33,576 bases of DNA from Pelotomaculum sp. (GTDB lineage Bacteria; Bacillota; Desulfotomaculia; Desulfotomaculales; Pelotomaculaceae): assembly GCA_018435055.1 (NCBI GenBank), contig JAHDOA010000055.1, forward strand, positions 1 through 33,576, in the 5' to 3' direction. The position numbers and the translations under genes are program-made. Below are positions 5,643-33,576 of this stretch, piece by piece. The notes under the pieces are model-generated. The model was not told the DNA's origin. It saw nothing but the letters and a program-made list of their open reading frames with translations, and did not search any database. How positions within the stretch are numbered: position 1 is the stretch's first letter; every line of letters starts with the position of its first letter.

Positions 5643-6485
5643 ATGGCCTTAATTCGTGAAAGAGACAGCAAGCGGCTGCACATCAAGAGCAAGCTGATGG
5701 GTGAGACCCTGGTGGGCAGGAGTTTTTTGGAGAGCCTGGAGTACGGTAAGACCTTCAGGGTCCTCCCGGATGTAAACGTTTTAAAAATTGGCGGCCAGAG
5801 CATAACTGACATGGGCGCCAGGGCGGTCCTGCCGGTGATGAAAGAAATTGTTGAAAACGCCCGGCGGCATAAAATGATCATTTCCACCGGCGGCGGGACC
5901 CGTTCCAGGCACGTTTACGCTATAGCTATGGAGCTGGGCATGCCTACCGGTATAATTTCTAAACTTGGCCAGAGCATTTCCGAGCAGAACGCCCTGATGC
6001 TGACCGTGCTGCTGAGCCCTCACGGGGGTATTAAAGTAGGCCACGACGATATCCCCAAATTGGGCGCTTATTTTGCCCAGGGATGCATACCGGTTATCCA
6101 CGGCATGCCGCCGTACGGTTATTGGGAGCACCCGCCTGAGGAAGGCCGCATTCCCAGCAACCGCACCGATGTGGGGGCGTTTCTGCTGGCGGAGGTAATA
6201 GGGGCGAAGCAGTGCATATTTGTTAAGGACGTGGACGGCCTCTATTCGGACAACCCCAAATTATACCCTGACGCCGAATTTTTTCCCAGGATAGGCGCCG
6301 CTGAATTACTGGAAAGGGAACAAGACGACCTGGCCGTGGAAAGGGTGGTGCTGGAACTGCTTAACCGTTCCCAGAACATCAGCGAAATACAGATCATCAA
6401 CGGGCTGAAAGAGGGCAGTATAACCAGGGCTTTAAACGGGGAACATGTCGGGACGATCATATACCAGGATAAAACTATTGAATAG
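5643..6485 (+). CDS. Molybdenum storage protein subunit (MosB-like, amino acid kinase fold), copy 1
   Basis: A 280-residue member of the UMP-kinase-like branch of the amino acid kinase superfamily. Features in order: VLKIGGQS (residues 47-53), STGGGTRSRH (81-90), HGGIKVGHDD (127-136), GMPPYGYW (154-161), RTDVGAFLLAE (174-184), FVKDVDGLYSDNP (193-205) and GEHVGTII (266-273). GGQS, GMPPY..W, RTD.G.FLLAE and GEHVGTII match, from memory, the Azotobacter molybdenum storage protein beta subunit (MosB), and differ from true UMP kinases. Such proteins form hexameric cages that store polyoxomolybdate or tungstate using ATP. A perfect terminator follows, so this gene and the small upstream ORF form one unit. 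A paralogue at 7340 is about 80% identical by eye. Assignment to the family is strong; whether Mo or W is stored is inferred. Confidence 0.88.
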   Translation: MALIRERDSKRLHIKSKLMGETLVGRSFLESLEYGKTFRVLPDVNVLKIGGQSITDMGARAVLPVMKEIVENARRHKMIISTGGGTRSRHVYAIAMELGMPTGIISKLGQSISEQNALMLTVLLSPHGGIKVGHDDIPKLGAYFAQGCIPVIHGMPPYGYWEHPPEEGRIPSNRTDVGAFLLAEVIGAKQCIFVKDVDGLYSDNPKLYPDAEFFPRIGAAELLEREQDDLAVERVVLELLNRSQNISEIQIINGLKEGSITRALNGEHVGTIIYQDKTIE

Positions 6486-7339: not shown

Positions 7340-8173
7340 ATGGCTCTCATTCGTGAAAGAGAAAGTAAAAGGCTGCATGTTAAAAGCAAGCTGATGGGTG
7401 AATCCCTGGTGGGCAAGGACTTTCTAAGAAGCCTTGAGTACCGGGAGACATTCCGGGTATTCCCGGATGTGAGCGTACTTAAGGTGGGTGGGCAGAGTAT
7501 CACCGACATGGGCGCCGTAGCGTTGCTGCCTGTAATAGGAGAGATTGTTGAAAACGCGAAGCGGCACAAAGTAGTCGTATCCACCGGCGGTGGAACCCGC
7601 TCCCGCCATGTATATTCCATAGCAATGGATCTGGGTATGCCCACCGGTATTATCGCCAGGTTGGGTCAGAGCGTTTCAGAGCAGAACGCCCTGATGCTGA
7701 CTGTGCTGCTGAGTCCTCACGGGGGAATCAAGGTTGGGCATGACGACCTTACCAAACTCGGCGCTTATTTTGCCCAGGGCTGTATTCCGGTCATCCACGG
7801 CATGCCGCCGTACGGTTACTGGGAACACCCGCCGGAAGAAGGCCGCATTCCCAGCAACCGTACAGATGTGGGCGCGTTTTTGCTGGCTGAAGTGATTGGC
7901 GCCAGGCAGTGTATATTTATAAAGGATGTAGATGGCTTATATACAGATAACCCGAAAGTAGATCCCCAGGCTGAATTTATACCGATCATTGGCGCAAATG
8001 AATTAATGGAAAAAGACCAGGACGACCTGGTGGTGGAAAGGATTGTACTGGAACTGCTTGACCGCTCCCAGAATATCAGCCGGATCCAGATCATCAACGG
8101 CCTGAAAGAGGGCAGCATCACTAGGGCTTTAAACGGGGAACATGTGGGGACCATCATTTATAAGGATAATTAA
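7340..8173 (+). CDS. Molybdenum storage protein subunit (MosB-like), copy 2
   Basis: A 277-residue paralogue of the protein at 5643, collinear over its full length and roughly 80% identical by eye. All signature segments are kept: VLKVGGQS, STGGGTRSRH, HGGIKVGHDD, GMPPYGYWEHPPEEGRIPSN, RTDVGAFLLAE, FIKDVDGLYTDNP and GEHVGTII. Substitutions cluster in the N-terminal 80 residues and around residues 205-235. At DNA level the conserved core has many synonymous differences, so the duplication is not recent. Azotobacter storage protein is an alpha3beta3 heterohexamer of two diverged subunits; here both copies look beta-like. They may make a mixed hexamer or two homohexamers. GAAGAGGA lies upstream of ATG. 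A strong terminator follows. Confidence 0.88.
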   Translation: MALIRERESKRLHVKSKLMGESLVGKDFLRSLEYRETFRVFPDVSVLKVGGQSITDMGAVALLPVIGEIVENAKRHKVVVSTGGGTRSRHVYSIAMDLGMPTGIIARLGQSVSEQNALMLTVLLSPHGGIKVGHDDLTKLGAYFAQGCIPVIHGMPPYGYWEHPPEEGRIPSNRTDVGAFLLAEVIGARQCIFIKDVDGLYTDNPKVDPQAEFIPIIGANELMEKDQDDLVVERIVLELLDRSQNISRIQIINGLKEGSITRALNGEHVGTIIYKDN

Positions 8174-8501: not shown

Positions 8502-9680
8502 GTGATTCAGATTACAGAACCAGAAGGAGCGGGAACCACAGCCCAGCCGGCGCAAAAACTGCGTAACCGCTTTGACCGGTACGAGGTTGCCGGCGCTTTT
8601 GGTGATCTGGGCACTTTCATCCCATTTGTTATCGGTTATATTGTAGTAACAGGGATAGACCCGCTGGGCATACTTTTTACCTTCGGCATCATGCTGATCT
8701 GCACAGGGCTTTATTATAAAACACCTGTTCCGGTCCAACCCATGAAAGCTATCGGCGCCGCCGCGGTTACACAGGTATCCGCCGTTACTCCCGGCATGGT
8801 CTGGGGCGCGGGTATCTTTACAGGTATATTCTGGCTGGTCATGGGTCTGACGGGAATGTTGGACGCTATCTCCAAGTTTATCTCCAAGCCTGTGGTCAAG
8901 GGCATTGTTTTGGGCCTGGGCTTGTCTTTTATTGTGCAGGGGATCAGGATGATGCAGTCCGATATAATTGTGGCGTTGATCGCATTGGCCTTAGCGTTTG
9001 CGTTGTTGACCAACAAGCGTGTCCCCGCCATGTTTGTGCTGGTCATTGTGGGAGTGGCCTCGGCGCTGATCAAAGACCCCGGACTATATAAAGAGCTTTC
9101 CGCCATCCATTTTGATTTTCAGCTGCCTTATTTTGCGCTGGGGCAGGTGTCATGGCAGGATTTTGTAAAGGGCGCGCTCATCCTGGGTATCGCCCAGGTA
9201 CCGTTAACCTTTGGCAATGCGGTTATAGCCATTACCGCCGAAAACAACAGGCTGTTTCCCGAACGGCCGGTAACCGAAAAGAAAATAGCTGTTTCCCAGG
9301 GGATTATGAACCTTTTTTCCCCGTTATTCGGCGGCGTCCCCGTTTGTCACGGGGCCGGAGGCCTGGCCGGGCACGTCCGTTTCGGCGCCCGAACCGGTGG
9401 CGGTCCGATTATACTGGGAGTGATCCTGATCGCGGCGGCACTCTGTTTCAGCAGTTCGGTAATGCTGATGTTTAATACTTTCCCTTCAAGCGTCCTGGGG
9501 GTGATCTTGTTTTTTGCCGGGCTGGAGCTGGCTGTCTCAGCCCGGGACGTGGATAAAGGAAAGGGTGAATATTACATATTATTGGTCACCGCAGGTTTTG
9601 CCTTCTGGAATATGGGCGCCGGCTTCGTCGCAGGCATTGTCATGCAGGAAATGCTGAAGAGAAAAGTTTTCAAAGTATAG
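8502..9680 (+). CDS. MOT1-family molybdate/sulfate permease
   Basis: A 392-residue polytopic protein (about ten to twelve membrane segments) related to SulP carriers but with the shorter MOT1 organisation and no STAS domain. Diagnostic pieces are FGDLGTFIPFVIGY near residue 36, PVQPMKAIGAAAVTQ, and GGVPVCHGAGGLAGHVRFGARTGG. These correspond to the two conserved MOT1 signatures known from plant and algal molybdate transporters. It lies next to two molybdenum storage genes, so molybdate uptake is likely, although bacterial members are often named sulfate transporters. The start is uncertain: GTG 8502 overlaps the AGGAG motif at 8498-8502, and an ATT codon at 8511 has better spacing. It would give the cell a secondary importer beside the ABC system. 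Confidence 0.85.
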   Translation: MIQITEPEGAGTTAQPAQKLRNRFDRYEVAGAFGDLGTFIPFVIGYIVVTGIDPLGILFTFGIMLICTGLYYKTPVPVQPMKAIGAAAVTQVSAVTPGMVWGAGIFTGIFWLVMGLTGMLDAISKFISKPVVKGIVLGLGLSFIVQGIRMMQSDIIVALIALALAFALLTNKRVPAMFVLVIVGVASALIKDPGLYKELSAIHFDFQLPYFALGQVSWQDFVKGALILGIAQVPLTFGNAVIAITAENNRLFPERPVTEKKIAVSQGIMNLFSPLFGGVPVCHGAGGLAGHVRFGARTGGGPIILGVILIAAALCFSSSVMLMFNTFPSSVLGVILFFAGLELAVSARDVDKGKGEYYILLVTAGFAFWNMGAGFVAGIVMQEMLKRKVFKV

Positions 9681-25716: not shown

Positions 25717-25755
25717 AAACACCGGCTGACACATCTCATGAAAATGTCCAGCCGG
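25717..25755 (-). terminator. Probable terminator between the selenoprotein gene and the DUF2269-like gene
   Basis: On the minus strand, CCGGCTG and CAGCCGG (25749-25755 / 25722-25728) form a stem extended by ACAT/ATGT after a small internal loop, followed by TGTTTT. Confidence 0.5.
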
Positions 25756-25778: not shown

Positions 25779-25798
25779 ATCCGATCAAACTATCGAAT
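25779..25798 (-). promoter_or_regulatory. Candidate bacterial SECIS element
   Basis: Minus-strand RNA reads AUUCGAU (25798-25792), loop AGUUUG (25791-25786), AUCGGAU (25785-25779). This is a seven-pair stem (one U-G) with G as the second loop nucleotide, followed by U. That G is 22 nucleotides after the first UGA (25814-25812). These values fit the published bacterial SECIS pattern as I recall it: apical loop 16-37 nucleotides after UGA, and G in one of the first two loop positions. Confidence 0.7.
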
Positions 25799-25802
25799 AT
25801 GT

Positions 25803-26018
25803 TCATACGCCTCAGGCGCCGCCGTAGCCAATTGTTACTTTTTCTCCCTCCACGATCACCGGGACCCTGCGCACGCCGCCTGAGAGTTTCAGCATCTCCG
25901 CCAATTTTTCGCTGTCTGACTTAACGTCGTAGTATTTCGCCCTATCCCCATAGTCCGATAACGCCCGTTGGGTATAAGGGCATCCGGCTTTGCCGTAAAT
26001 GACTGTTTCCTCAGCCAT
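25803..26018 (-). CDS. UXX-star-type glutaredoxin-like selenoprotein (UGA read as Sec at residue 69)
   Basis: The conventional ORF stops at UGA 25814-25812 after 68 residues: a glutaredoxin-like protein with TVIYGKAGCPYTQRAL (active-site C13), a cis-Pro segment VRRVPVIV (P53) and VTIGYGG at the end. Beyond that UGA come GGC, GTA and a second UGA (25805-25803). The C-terminus would therefore be Ala-Sec-Gly-Val-stop. This is the layout of the UXX-star family (Sec or Cys, two residues, stop) as I remember it. A SECIS-like hairpin lies at the right distance. The full product is then 71 residues with a Cys at the N-terminal active site and Sec at the C-terminal end, resembling a redox relay. AGGAGG precedes the ATG. 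An automated caller would end the gene at 25812. The physiological role is unknown; selenium or redox handling is a guess. Confidence 0.75.
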
Positions 26019-26207
26019 AGTCTAAAACCTCCTTTTTATTTTAATTTACAACTAGTCTCCAGCCGGGGAAATATGCTGTTTATGACAATGATAACGCGGA
26101 TGGCCTTATAAGGCTATATTTTTTATATGATATAATTTTTGTAAGTGTCATAAAAACAGCTTTGAACCTGTTATATATATGAAACTGTCAATGGAGGTCC
26201 TAAGGCA

Positions 26208-26747
26208 GTGCCGCAAATTACCACCAGTTTCAATAAAAGCCTGGCTGGTTTTAAGGAAATTTTCGAAAGCCACTATCCGTCTGTTTGCCGCAAGCTTACT
26301 TCTCTTCTGGGCAGTCGTGCCGCCGCGGAGGACGTTGCCCAGGAAGCTTTCATCAAGCTGTACGAGGCGCCGCCCAGAGAATTTTCCAACCTGGGCGGGT
26401 GGTTGACGAGAGTAGCCACCAATATGGCTTACAACCACCTGAACAGCGAAAATAGCCGACGCCGTAGGGAGGCGGACGCCGGCAGTTCCCTGGTGACAGT
26501 CGAGCCCGAGCCGGGCGAGGAGTTATTGCGAAGCGAAGAAGCGGCTTTGACCCGCCGGGTGCTTGAGCTTCTGCCTGAAAGGGACCGGGCCTGCCTGCTT
26601 TTGAGGTATTCAGGAATGGATTATGCTTCCATAGCGCGGGTTATCGGTGTTAAGGAGTCTTCCGTCGGTACATTGCTGGCGAGGGCGCGGGCCAGGTTCA
26701 GGAAGGAATATTTAAAGCTCGGGGGAAGTGATCATGGTGTGTTATAA
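26208..26747 (+). CDS. ECF-type RNA polymerase sigma factor
   Basis: A 179-residue sigma-70 family ECF protein. Region 2 includes FESHYPSVCRKLTSLLGSRAAAEDVAQEAFIKLYE and WLTRVATNMAYNHL. Region 4 includes LPERDRACLLLRYSGMDYASIARVIGVKESSVGTLLARARARF, with the helix-turn-helix. These are cited as landmarks only. GTG 26208 follows GGAGGT by nine bases. The anti-sigma gene overlaps its end by 14 bases, the usual arrangement for co-regulation. A TATAAT at 26131-26136 could be its -10, but no -35 is clear. Which signal it answers to is unknown. Confidence 0.93.
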   Translation: MPQITTSFNKSLAGFKEIFESHYPSVCRKLTSLLGSRAAAEDVAQEAFIKLYEAPPREFSNLGGWLTRVATNMAYNHLNSENSRRRREADAGSSLVTVEPEPGEELLRSEEAALTRRVLELLPERDRACLLLRYSGMDYASIARVIGVKESSVGTLLARARARFRKEYLKLGGSDHGVL

Positions 26748-27879
26748 TACCGGTTCCCTGCAGGCGTATCTGGAGGGGGAGGTAACAGCAGGACAAAAAG
26801 CTGAGATCGAGGAACACCTCGCCTCCTGCCGGCTGTGCCGTGAGAAATACGAGAAGATAAAGGAAAACCAGGCCTTTGCCAACAGCAGGCTGGCCGGATA
26901 CATGCAACTGCTCGGGCGGGGAAATGTGGATACTGGCGCGGCTTGGGACCGGTTTAAAGGTGGATTCGTCCATAGACAGGGAAGAAAAAGAAAAAACGCT
27001 TATGTTTGGAAAGGGGTTTTAACGATGCTGTCAAGATATCGTGCTGCCGCGACCGCCGCGGTAATTGTTTTAGCCATAGCGTTCAGCTTCAGCTTTGGGG
27101 CTGTGCGGACTGCTGCCAGTGAACTGCTTACCATATTCAGGGTTGAAAAGGTGAAAATTATAAACATCACTCCGGCCGATATGGCGAGTATAGAAGAAGC
27201 AATGCGAGAGGGAGCAGGCCAGGTTGATGTCGAAAACTTCGGCAAATTAGAGTTTAACGGAAAAATGCAGACAGAGAAAACGACAATGGACAAGGCGAGC
27301 AGCGCGGTTGATTTCATAATCAAGCTGCCAGCCGCCCTGTCCGGTTACGGCGAGCCGGAATTATACATGGAATCCGGAGGAACTATGGATTTCACCCTGG
27401 ATACTGTCAATACGAACAATTTCCTGCGGTCACTGGGCAGTGAGAAACTTTTGCCTGATGAACTTAACGGCAAGACTTTTACAGTAAAAATACCGGCGCT
27501 GATTACCGCCGAATACCGTGGGGTTGGAAACAAAGAGATCATTATCGGTCAAGGCAGAAGCCCCGAACTGGCTGCCCCCGGTTCTGATTTGTCGGCCATC
27601 CGTGACGCGTTGCTGGCGATACCCTTCCTGCCGGATAACCTGCGGAGCCAGTTGGCGTCGATTAACGACTGGCAGCATACCTTTATATTGCCGAATATAG
27701 AGGGCTCGTCAAAGGATGTTAAGGTTGGCGGAGCAGAGGGCGTGTTTATCAGTGCGCCTGAAGGTTCCGCAGCGGGCAGTTACTCCGGCCTGATCTGGCA
27801 AAAAGACGGTGTTGTATACGGGATTAGCGGAGACCTGACCCTGGAGCAAACCCTGGATATAGCAAACAAGATGAAATAG
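26734..27879 (+). CDS. Membrane anti-sigma factor (zf-HC2) with large extracytoplasmic domain
   Basis: A 381-residue protein. The N-terminal zinc anti-sigma module has C3 and HLASCRLC (H-x3-C-x2-C), as in ZAS-type anti-sigma factors. One membrane helix lies near residues 105-127 (AATAAVIVLAIAFSFSFGAV). A C-terminal domain of about 250 residues lies outside the membrane, ending with a DUF4367-like portion (SGLIWQKDGVVYGISGDLTLEQTLDIANKM). ATG 26734 is chosen over GTG 26728 because GGGGGA is seven bases before it. Its product should hold the ECF sigma inactive until an envelope signal. The ligand is not identifiable. Confidence 0.88.
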   Translation: MVCYNTGSLQAYLEGEVTAGQKAEIEEHLASCRLCREKYEKIKENQAFANSRLAGYMQLLGRGNVDTGAAWDRFKGGFVHRQGRKRKNAYVWKGVLTMLSRYRAAATAAVIVLAIAFSFSFGAVRTAASELLTIFRVEKVKIINITPADMASIEEAMREGAGQVDVENFGKLEFNGKMQTEKTTMDKASSAVDFIIKLPAALSGYGEPELYMESGGTMDFTLDTVNTNNFLRSLGSEKLLPDELNGKTFTVKIPALITAEYRGVGNKEIIIGQGRSPELAAPGSDLSAIRDALLAIPFLPDNLRSQLASINDWQHTFILPNIEGSSKDVKVGGAEGVFISAPEGSAAGSYSGLIWQKDGVVYGISGDLTLEQTLDIANKMK

Positions 27880-28245
27880 TGGCAATTTATTAAGCGGAAT
27901 GGGGACACACCTCTGTTTGGGGTCCGGCTTTGGGGCTGAGGTATGTCCCCGATGGAAGGCATTTGCTGCAAAGTCCACGGTGTTGAAACCAGCAGCTTAA
28001 TTGAGACGTGAGAATGAGCCTTGAGCAGGCGGGATGAAACCTGCCCTACAGTGAGAAATGAGACTGTAGGTGCGACTTCAGTCGCACAATGGTCGGCTGA
28101 AACCGTATTGGAACGGCGGGATGAAACCCACCCTACAGGAAACAGGATATACCCACGGCTCATGTCCAGCGACTCAAATGCCAAGCGGGTTCAACACCGT
28201 GAAAAATTTTATCAGGGTTTTAAACTAACAGCTAGGAGGGCGAAA
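27880..28245. repeat. Second intergenic repeat island
   Basis: No gene is seen in this stretch. It contains an imperfect inverted repeat GGGGACACACCTC (27901-27913) / GAGGTATGTCCCC (27938-27950). Next are CGGGATGAAACCTGCCCTAC (28030 on) and a second copy CGGGATGAAACCCACCCTAC (near 28117), plus the palindrome GTGCGACT-TC-AGTCGCAC (28070-28087). The palindrome and the CGGGAT...CCCTAC unit are the same family as at 4949-5114. An in-frame GTG-start extension of the ABC gene from 28021 only reads these repeats and is rejected. Confidence 0.7.
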
Positions 28246-31105: not shown

Positions 31106-31180
<75 letters not shown>

Positions 31181-31201
31181 GCTAAATAACCAAAAAACCT
31201 A

Positions 31202-31327
31202 GAGGACAAGGGGCTTCCAGCCCAATTAAATCAAAGGGAGTCAGGCAATTATATCCCGTAGTAATCCCCAAGAATACTGAGGTATTCCCACCTATGAGGA
31301 CAAGGTGGAGGACAAAATGGAGGACAA
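31202..31327 (+). repeat. Directly repeated GAGGACAA boxes (12-base period)
   Basis: GAGGACAA occurs at 31202, 31296, 31308 and 31320; the last three have exactly 12-base spacing. They lie between the tRNA and the initiator-like gene. Candidates are arm-type sites for the recombinase or iterons for the initiator. Confidence 0.6.
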
Positions 31328-31331
31328 AAAC

Positions 31332-31358
31332 CCTGCTAAAGAAAGCAGGATTTTTTCT
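31332..31358 (+). terminator. First of two tandem terminators left of the element genes
   Basis: CCTGCT (31332-31337) / AGCAGG (31344-31349), loop AAAGAA, followed by TTTTTTCTTT. Confidence 0.85.
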
Positions 31359-31395
31359 TTGTGAGGCCAGAAAAAAAATTAAATCTATGACAACG

Positions 31396-31427
31396 ACAGC
31401 CTATACTTTTAGGGCTGTTTTTCTTTT
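31396..31427 (+). terminator. Second tandem terminator
   Basis: ACAGCC (31396-31401) / GGCTGT (31413-31418), then TTTTTCTTTT. Together with the preceding one it insulates the element from transcription coming from tRNA-Arg. Confidence 0.75.
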
Positions 31428-31452
31428 GTTTTTATTAGGGAGGTTTAGAGTA

Positions 31453-32259
31453 ATGAATAATGAAAAAACTTTAGTCATACTCGATCCTGTACTAAAAAGA
31501 GGGTTTACGTCAGTCCCTAATGTCGTGCTTTGGGCAAAAAAATTATCAATGCCGGCAAAATGCCTGTATGGCATCCTACTCTCGTTTGCATGGCAAGAGA
31601 ACGAATGTTTTCCTGGGCAGGAGAGGTTGGCAGAGGCCGCCGACTGCACCGACAAAACGATAAGAAAGTATTTGGAGGAGCTGCGGAAGTACGGTTTGAT
31701 TTCCTGGGTCCGGCGGGGGCTGAATCAAACGAATATTTACTACATTTGTGATTTAAATGGGGTTGAGAGGCTGAAAGCCTTGGGGGACAAGGACCGGAAA
31801 GGATGTTCCGGTCAAGAACGGAAAGAGCTTTCCGACAAAGAATACTCAGTTAAGAGATCTGTTGTTGTTGATCCTCGCGCGAACGATAAAAAATCAAACA
31901 GTAACACTGAAAGCAGCACTGTCACGGACGACGGAGCTGCTTTTGATTTGCCGGCCGGCGGCGAAATGGAAGTCTGCAGCCAGGGAGAAGATCAAAAGGA
32001 CAAAAGCCCGCAGGAACCTCCGGCCCGGGAGCAGCTCCGGAAAAAAGTCCGGGCCCTGGCCGGCGCCGAAATATCTGCGGGATTCGCAGAGGAAATTCTG
32101 GAGAGGTACCCGCCGGAGAAAATATCCTCTGCTTTAACTGAACTTCAACGGCAACTCTCTCAGGGGATCGAGATAAGAATTTTTAAAAGATTGATGAAAT
32201 ACAAACACCAGGAGATAGACGGTGTTTTTTGCTTTATAAGGAAAACGATTAACGGTTAA
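31453..32259 (+). CDS. Replication-initiator-like winged-helix protein of an integrative element
   Basis: A 268-residue protein. The N-terminal 105 residues form a helix-turn-helix domain with VPNVVLWAKKLSMPAKCLYGILLSFAWQENECFPGQERLAEAADCTDKTIRKYLEELRKYGLISWVRRG (cited only as a span, residues about 17-85). This matches the 'helix-turn-helix domain' seen in RepA_N/initiator proteins of plasmids, phages and ICEs. A Ser/Asp/Glu-rich linker follows (about 135-200), then a helical C-terminal domain (LEELRKK.. to IRKTI). ATG 31453 is chosen because GGGAGG is nine bases upstream; the longer GTG reading from 31294 would cross two terminators. Replication or partition of the element is inferred. Confidence 0.65.
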   Translation: MNNEKTLVILDPVLKRGFTSVPNVVLWAKKLSMPAKCLYGILLSFAWQENECFPGQERLAEAADCTDKTIRKYLEELRKYGLISWVRRGLNQTNIYYICDLNGVERLKALGDKDRKGCSGQERKELSDKEYSVKRSVVVDPRANDKKSNSNTESSTVTDDGAAFDLPAGGEMEVCSQGEDQKDKSPQEPPAREQLRKKVRALAGAEISAGFAEEILERYPPEKISSALTELQRQLSQGIEIRIFKRLMKYKHQEIDGVFCFIRKTING

Positions 32260-32339
32260 ACTGATAAAGAGATTTGCGTAAAAGCAGCTGAGATTATGGC
32301 TTAAAGGTTCAATTCCCTTGAAAGGGTGGGTGAAGATTA

Positions 32340-32507
32340 TTGTCGGACTTGAGGCAAAACCTTGAAACCCTTGCCAAAATGAGCGAGGGGGAAGACACGT
32401 TTACCGCACTGGAAGAAAACCTTGAATTGCTGGGAAGTTTAAAAATTGCGGAACCGGCATTTGCAGACTGGGACAATGAAGAGGATGCAGTCTATGATCA
32501 GGTATGA
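32340..32507 (+). CDS. Small acidic 55-residue protein of the integrative element
   Basis: A TTG-start frame reading MSDLRQNLETLAKMSEGEDT and continuing to TGA at 32505-32507. It is rich in Glu/Leu and likely helical, with no cysteine. GGGTGGGTGAAG is just upstream. It lies 80 bases after the initiator-like gene and before a strong terminator, so it may share that transcript. Homology is not known; support is moderate because of its length. Confidence 0.5.
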   Translation: MSDLRQNLETLAKMSEGEDTFTALEENLELLGSLKIAEPAFADWDNEEDAVYDQV

Positions 32508-32589
32508 ACCGGGTATCTAAATAAGCCGCTGGAGGGACCCTGCCGAGTTAATTTGTAAGAAGCATGCAACAACCCATTAACCAACAGGA

Positions 32590-32632
32590 GGACAGTAATA
32601 AGACGTAGTTTGTCTTGTTATCGTCCTTTTTT
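32590..32632 (+). terminator. Strong intrinsic terminator before the integrase
   Basis: A 15-pair stem with one mismatch, two G-T pairs and loop GTAGTTT (from GGAC at 32590 to GTCC at 32626), then TTTTTT. Confidence 0.88.
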
Positions 32633-32655
32633 GCATTTAAAAAAGATTTAAGGGG

Positions 32656-33576
32656 GTGGCTCATATCTCCACCATTAGATACAAATACAAGAAAACCGGA
32701 ATCGGCGCAGTAGACAACCTCGGTGCGCAATTAGAGAAAGTGTTTAAAGGCGCCCGGCAGGGGAGCATTGAAACGAAGTACCGCTATATTGCCGCCGCTG
32801 AGAGATTTGTCAAATTTGTTGGGATACATTTTAAACTTAAAAAAATCCAGAATATCCAGGATAAACACCTTGAAGCCTTCGCCGTGAATTTGAAAGACCG
32901 CAAGTGCAGCAACAAGTATATAAAAAATGAACTGGCCGGGATAAGATACCTGCACCGTCAGCTTCCGCAAGCAAGGTATAGCCTGAAAGACAGTAAGACG
33001 GCTAATAAAGAAATGGGCCTTGGCAGCACTCCGGACGGCCGGGCGGATAGGGCCTGGACTGAAGACGAGTTGTCCCAAATGAAAAATGAAGCCATATTAC
33101 GTGGCCACCATGACATCGCAAGAATAATGGAGGTTATCAGGACAACGGGAATGAGGTTGGATGAAGCGGCCAGCCTCCGGCGCTCTGTGGTCGAGGACGC
33201 GCTGAGAACCGGCGTATTGGAATTGAAAAACACCAAGGGTGGCCGCCCCAGGAGCGTGCCTCTCATCGATAGGGCTAAAGCAATTCTGGACAAAGCCTTG
33301 AAAAACTCTGCCCGGGGCGATTACGCTTTTACTCCGGCTGGTTTAAAGGTCCATGTTTATGAGAAAAGAGTAAAAAACTTTATTTACAACCACCGCAAGG
33401 TGATTCAGGAACAGAAAAGAAGCGCTTCCGGTCATAACCTGGACACTGGCGACAGGGGCGCTCTTACTCCCCACGGTTTGCGGCACACGTTTGCCCGTGA
33501 ATATATCGCCCGCCGGTACAAGGAATATTTGTCGGCAGGTATTTCTGCAGCTACAGCCTCGGCCAGGGCCAGGAAA
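32656..33576 (+). CDS. Tyrosine recombinase/integrase (3' truncated by the window)
   Basis: The frame is open for 307 codons from GTG 32656 to the window edge. It has an N-terminal SAM-like core-binding domain (residues about 25-110) and then the catalytic domain. The catalytic Arg lies in TTGMRLDEAASL (R167), the beta-hairpin Lys in NTKGGRPRSVPL (K194), and the box II motif is HGLRHTF (H273, R276). The second conserved His/Trp and nucleophilic Tyr lie beyond the window. An in-frame stop at 32638-32640 excludes a longer start; AAGGGGG is immediately adjacent to the GTG, so spacing is poor. It would integrate the element, probably at tRNA-Arg, 1.5 kb away. Confidence 0.88.
   Translation, partial: MAHISTIRYKYKKTGIGAVDNLGAQLEKVFKGARQGSIETKYRYIAAAERFVKFVGIHFKLKKIQNIQDKHLEAFAVNLKDRKCSNKYIKNELAGIRYLHRQLPQARYSLKDSKTANKEMGLGSTPDGRADRAWTEDELSQMKNEAILRGHHDIARIMEVIRTTGMRLDEAASLRRSVVEDALRTGVLELKNTKGGRPRSVPLIDRAKAILDKALKNSARGDYAFTPAGLKVHVYEKRVKNFIYNHRKVIQEQKRSASGHNLDTGDRGALTPHGLRHTFAREYIARRYKEYLSAGISAATASARARK

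Follow-up and report, generated by a model that had tools for sequence, protein, structure and literature searches.

Where does the protein encoded by the glutaredoxin-like open reading frame at 25779–26018 end, at the UGA codon that closes this frame or beyond it, with the UGA encoding selenocysteine (Sec)? The window, that is, the whole stretch of 33,576 nucleotides analyzed here, carries this frame on the minus strand: 68 codons from the ATG at 26018 to a first UGA (25814–25812), followed by GGC (25811–25809), GTA (25808–25806) and a second UGA (25805–25803).

Two UGA codons at the end of a glutaredoxin-like gene

The arrangement expected of UXX-star family 1 (NF041114), in which two codons and then a stop come after an in-frame UGA, is present at 25814–25803 (minus strand). 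The first-pass annotation had described this frame, with Sec third from the end, and both the sequence and its translation bear out the description. The features of the gene are the following.

26028–26034, minus strand: ribosome-binding site AAGGAGG, read from the sequence, 9 nt before the ATG
25806–26018, minus strand: coding sequence of a predicted 71-residue UXX-star selenoprotein with Cys13 in CPYT, Sec69 and a C-terminal Gly-Val (translation with TGA read through; match to NF041114)
25812–25814, minus strand: UGA almost certainly read as selenocysteine (Sec69); UGA here in 50 homologues, Cys codons in L027–L029
25803–25805, minus strand: UGA that is the true stop codon; the final stop is TGA in 22/51, TAA in 21/51 and TAG in 8/51 sequences (window included), and protein-level conservation does not extend past it
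25779–25798, minus strand: SECIS-like hairpin AUUCGAU[AGUUUG]AUCGGAU, wholly 3' of the stop, with covariation in homologues; best local match of a model built without the clade of the window
25722–25755, minus strand: terminator-like hairpin CCGGCTG...CAGCCGG, then TGTTTT, seen by eye

The last of these hairpins probably ends the transcript; it is missing from the hairpin scan because the loop limit of that scan was 8 nt.

The read-through product scores 109.3 bits against the NCBIfam model NF041114, ‘UXX-star selenoprotein family 1’ (cut-off 72), so the UXX-star name proposed in the first pass was right. The truncated product of 68 amino acids also passes, with 101 bits. Ordinary ORF callers do truncate the gene, as had been claimed, and reading through restores the reactive residue that they cut off; the gene is ‘hidden’ only in a relative sense, because NCBIfam recognizes even the truncated form. 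That the truncated product retains CPYT and scores above the family cut-off would also fit an ordinary stop at the first UGA, that is, a 68-residue monothiol glutaredoxin-like protein with an incidental hairpin, or one that is part of a terminator, behind it.

Homologues taken from the genomes of relatives and from named genome contigs argue against such a stop. At the equivalent place, 50 homologues have UGA, never UAA or UAG, followed in nearly all of them by two codons and a stop. The exceptions are L058, which has one codon more (UGVR-stop instead of UGV-stop), and L065, in which the Sec/Cys tail is not recognizable. Cysteine at this position, the replacement that the first-pass annotation proposed to look for, was found in three relatives from the same taxonomic family (L027–L029), which have Cys codons there and end in Cys-x-x-stop. 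These Cys forms have neighbor genes in common with the Sec forms L022, L025 and L026, so that Sec and Cys interchange in what looks like one orthologous locus. A consistent Gly-Gly-Ala ending, named in the first pass as evidence against Sec, is not what the homologues have; they run on with Sec (UGA) or Cys and two residues.

The genome also encodes the full Sec machinery, the absence of which would likewise have counted against the first-pass reading. The gene for tRNA-Sec (71.9 bits, also called by ARAGORN) is on contig C49, together with selA and selB, which adjoin each other, and selD is on contig C18, with its own in-frame TGA. Across genomes, the presence of selA fails to separate the two forms: three genomes with Cys tails (G010, G018 and G022) keep selA, and, among those with Sec, none was detected in G075 and only a fragment in G100, both incomplete assemblies. 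The same genome contains a second Sec glutaredoxin, of the YruB type (G000 contig C38:24987–25181, L021); its N-terminal site (U-P-H-C) contains an in-frame TGA, downstream of which lies a 7-bp hairpin.

The hairpin behind the stop codon

The hairpin (25798–25779, minus strand) has 7 pairs, including one wobble, and the start of its loop (25791–25786) is 20 nt from the Sec UGA and 11 nt from the stop UGA; the first-pass description of seven pairs and an AGUUUG loop, with its G 22 nt after the first UGA, is exact (loop G at 25790). By itself, this hairpin is within chance, which again would fit an ordinary stop: with ViennaRNA on 40 nt, its minimum free energy (MFE) is −6.8 kcal/mol (z −0.68), a value equaled or bettered by 43 of 200 shuffles, and an equally good hairpin arises at SECIS distance in 9.5% of shuffles. 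A scan of the hairpin region with Rfam gave no relevant match. The bacterial SECIS search model calls for a loop of 3–9 nt, an upper stem of 4–16 bp, a G in the first two loop positions and a distance of 16–37 nt from the UGA (PMC13188914); the hairpin of the window, with a 6-nt loop, a 7-bp stem, G at loop position 2 and a spacing of 20 nt, agrees with all four. It misses the energy threshold of that model, an MFE of −7.5 kcal/mol or lower (PMC13188914), although the energy program and the folded interval behind the threshold may differ. The hairpin of the nearest relative, L038, reaches −9.2 kcal/mol.

The comparative evidence is much stronger. The 30 nt after the stop have a mean fold energy of −10.9 kcal/mol in the 51 UGA-bearing sequences (window included), compared with −4.0 kcal/mol for 204 control stretches located farther 3' (p = 4e-22). 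Being located past the stop codon, the 7-pair stem is under no coding constraint. Of 44 hairpins, several were misaligned by MAFFT, and covariation was assessed in a subset of 27 homologues, all outside the clade of the window. In these, 82% of the cells are standard-paired compared with 61.5% after shuffling, both sides of the stem have changed in 50 cells compared with 19.4, and the covariation score is 0.65, compared with 0.28 for shuffled and at most 0.21 for slid controls, beyond all 500 shuffles, figures that may be flattered by the choice of these hairpins for alignable spacing; the energy comparison over 51 sequences is free of such selection. The loops in the family begin 16–24 nt after the UGA, and many are of the AGUU or GGU types.

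A covariance model made from the 27 hairpins has its best local match (E 0.043 in 501 bases) at 25800–25771 (minus strand), on the hairpin of the window, although the model is short and other hairpins in the 33 kb score equally well or better. The same model finds the hairpins of the held-out L038, L026 and L033 and, in the same test, none in the Cys forms. Behind the Cys codons of L027–L029, no convincing hairpin was found (best-hairpin shuffle p 0.23–0.70), and the fold energies after the stop are −0.5, −2.8 and −6.7, weak in two of the three. Where the Sec forms carry the hairpin, a degenerate 13-nt tandem repeat (GTGAGATGTGAAC) starts from the stop codon in Cys forms (L028:1710–1758; also L029, by eye).

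Judged by this comparative evidence, the hairpin of the window appears to work like a SECIS even though a strict energy filter would miss it. The bacterial SECIS proposed in the first pass thus draws its support from the covariation across the family and from the energy contrast, not from the hairpin of the window taken alone. Together, the conserved UGA, its replacement by Cys, the covarying hairpin, the Sec machinery and the NF041114 score settle the Sec reading, which the hairpin of the window would not do on its own. The first UGA is almost certainly read as Sec in this organism, and it is very improbable that it is an ordinary stop.

The hairpin just 3' of the gene is the presumed binding site of SelB carrying Sec-tRNA, whereby the first UGA would be decoded as Sec69, and the second UGA, two codons on, would end translation because, as proposed, its distance from the hairpin is unsuitable. 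Both UGAs could, in principle, encode Sec, with the protein continuing past the second, given that the second codon is UGA as well and that five further open codons separate it from a third UGA. This possibility is very improbable: UAA or UAG occupies the second position in 29/51 sequences, and no protein-level conservation past the second stop was found across the 51. At 9 nt past the Sec codon, UGA is not avoided, UGA-x-x-UGA being present in 22/51 sequences. Thus, it is probably the distance to the hairpin that separates the Sec UGA from the stop UGA. It seems likely that the hairpin is a natural bacterial SECIS located wholly in the 3' untranslated region, with distance alone separating two UGAs 9 nt apart, the first for Sec and the second for stop. 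Because such a hairpin carries no coding duty, UXX-star family 1 would be a clean natural test of the choice of SelB between two nearby UGAs.

Family, fold and the two Sec/Cys sites

The gene is a further member of a known selenoprotein family, UXX-star family 1, and not a new kind of system. The family appears as ‘Distant Grx-like protein 1’ in a 2026 review, which refers to a 2008 ocean metagenome study (PMC13188914); having been catalogued since 2008, and with an NCBIfam model of its own, this kind of protein is already known. In the accessible part of Zhang and Gladyshev 2008, no detailed description of the family was found. For family 2 and the HUGP fusion, Haft and Tolstoy 2025 is the reference given in the review (PMC13188914). 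UXX-star families 2 and 3, as well as the HUGP/GUXX-star fusion, share with the protein of the window a related glutaredoxin-like domain and a tail Sec or Cys, but this protein scores only 52, 51 and 55 bits against NF041211, NF047338 and NF045501, far under the respective cut-offs of 100, 97 and 325. With family 1 it has in common the length, the glutaredoxin fold, the tail Sec followed by two residues and a stop, and the hairpin after the stop; it differs in having Cys (CPYT) at the N-terminal site, whereas both sites are Sec in 22/54 members of the tree, including L051, the nearest relative outside the taxonomic family of the window.

An AlphaFold2 model (mean pLDDT 85.6) has the glutaredoxin fold without the usual last helix. 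The fold, the N-terminal CPYx site and the cis-Pro are shared with classical glutaredoxin 3 and the YruB/NrdH-type proteins (TIGR02181, TIGR02196, TIGR02194), in contrast to which the window protein has CPYT, the dithiol CxxC active site of glutaredoxin 3 being absent, and a tail Sec where the last helix would be. Classical glutaredoxin 3 itself (TIGR02181) can be dismissed as the identity of the protein, at 28.2 bits compared with a cut-off of 90.

Across 53 aligned sequences, Pro53 and Gly64 are invariant and columns 13 and 69 are always Cys or Sec, the constancy of column 69 being partly by construction because these are the homologues with a recognized tail. When both chalcogen columns were masked for tree building, the resulting tree required 7 Sec/Cys changes at the N-terminal site and 1 at the C-terminal site, so that the tail Sec appears to be the more constrained of the two. 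A nearly fixed tail Sec next to an interchangeable N-terminal Sec/Cys points to which selenol matters in a family without known function. The clade of the window (window, L038, L045 and L046), with CPYT or CPFT, groups with the double-Sec L051 (support 99/86). This placement, within a group with mostly Sec at both sites, suggests replacement of an N-terminal Sec by Cys. In double-Sec relatives, GGCC[AGGUC]GGCC lies 18 nt after the N-terminal UGA, and L038 keeps the stem. A remnant of an N-terminal SECIS at CPYT was considered for the window and set aside as only suggestive; its copy is broken, and conserved codons confound the pattern. A horizontal origin of the version in the window was also not adopted: it nests among sequences from Nitrospirota and Deltaproteobacteria, yet a grouping with the other copies from its own taxonomic family is not rejected (p-AU 0.13, only 73 columns).

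Under the proposed mechanism, Cys13 of CPYT and Sec69 of the GG-x-Sec-x-x tail would act together by selenenylsulfide exchange, and Sec69 would be harder to dispense with than Cys13. In mammalian-type thioredoxin reductase, a Sec near the C-terminus is likewise thought to exchange with a second redox site; the likeness is of principle only, that enzyme being a flavoenzyme with an unrelated fold and a eukaryotic SECIS. The putative redox pairing of residues 13 and 69, the internal relay suggested in the first pass, is plausible and is the simplest reading, with about an even chance of being correct. Alternatively, the protein might bind a soft metal or metalloid, with Sec69 and Cys13 as ligands and no redox catalysis. 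The short GG-x-Sec tail replaces the usual glutathione-binding region and the last glutaredoxin helix, and, according to the review, the Sec of UXX-star proteins may be a metal-binding ligand (PMC13188914). In its fold and in its C-P-Y-T site with cis-Pro, however, the protein matches thiol oxidoreductases, and no conserved metal-handling neighbor was found at the locus; a ligand role is conceivable but rather unlikely. A small thiol/selenol oxidoreductase is the most likely identity of the protein. Taken as a whole, it is highly probable that the product of the gene is a UXX-star family 1 selenoprotein of 71 residues with a glutaredoxin fold, likely an oxidoreductase, in which the first UGA is Sec69 and the second is made a stop by distance.

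Surroundings of the gene

The selenoprotein gene is flanked on one side by a gene for a membrane protein with weak HemJ/UPF0093 similarity and on the other by a divergent ECF sigma factor gene. As a clue to function, this neighborhood was discarded, homologues of the flanking genes having been found only in the close-kin loci L045 and L046, not across the family. The sigma factor and a zf-HC2 anti-sigma-like membrane protein occupy 26208–27879 (plus strand), and a homologue of the sigma factor is also present in both L045 and L046; shared regulation of this pair and the selenoprotein gene is possible.

Elsewhere in the window, two paralogues (5643–6485 and 7340–8173, plus strand) have the beta subunit of molybdenum storage protein as their closest match (E 3e-72 and 6e-74, respectively, against solved chains). 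A LysM gene separates the two, and a MOT1-type molybdate transporter is encoded at 8502–9680. Together, these genes look like a molybdenum storage locus in which both subunits are beta-like. Just before an ABC transporter gene, a direct repeat, GGCGGGATGAAACC(TG/CA)CCCTACAG, occurs twice, at a spacing of 87 nt, within a 14-nt inverted repeat (27977–28200); it may be a small dispersed element. At 31106–33576 (plus strand), tRNA-Arg (CCG) is followed by a gene for an HTH_36-domain protein and by a protein at the contig end that resembles a tyrosine recombinase (by eye), possibly an element integrated at the tRNA.
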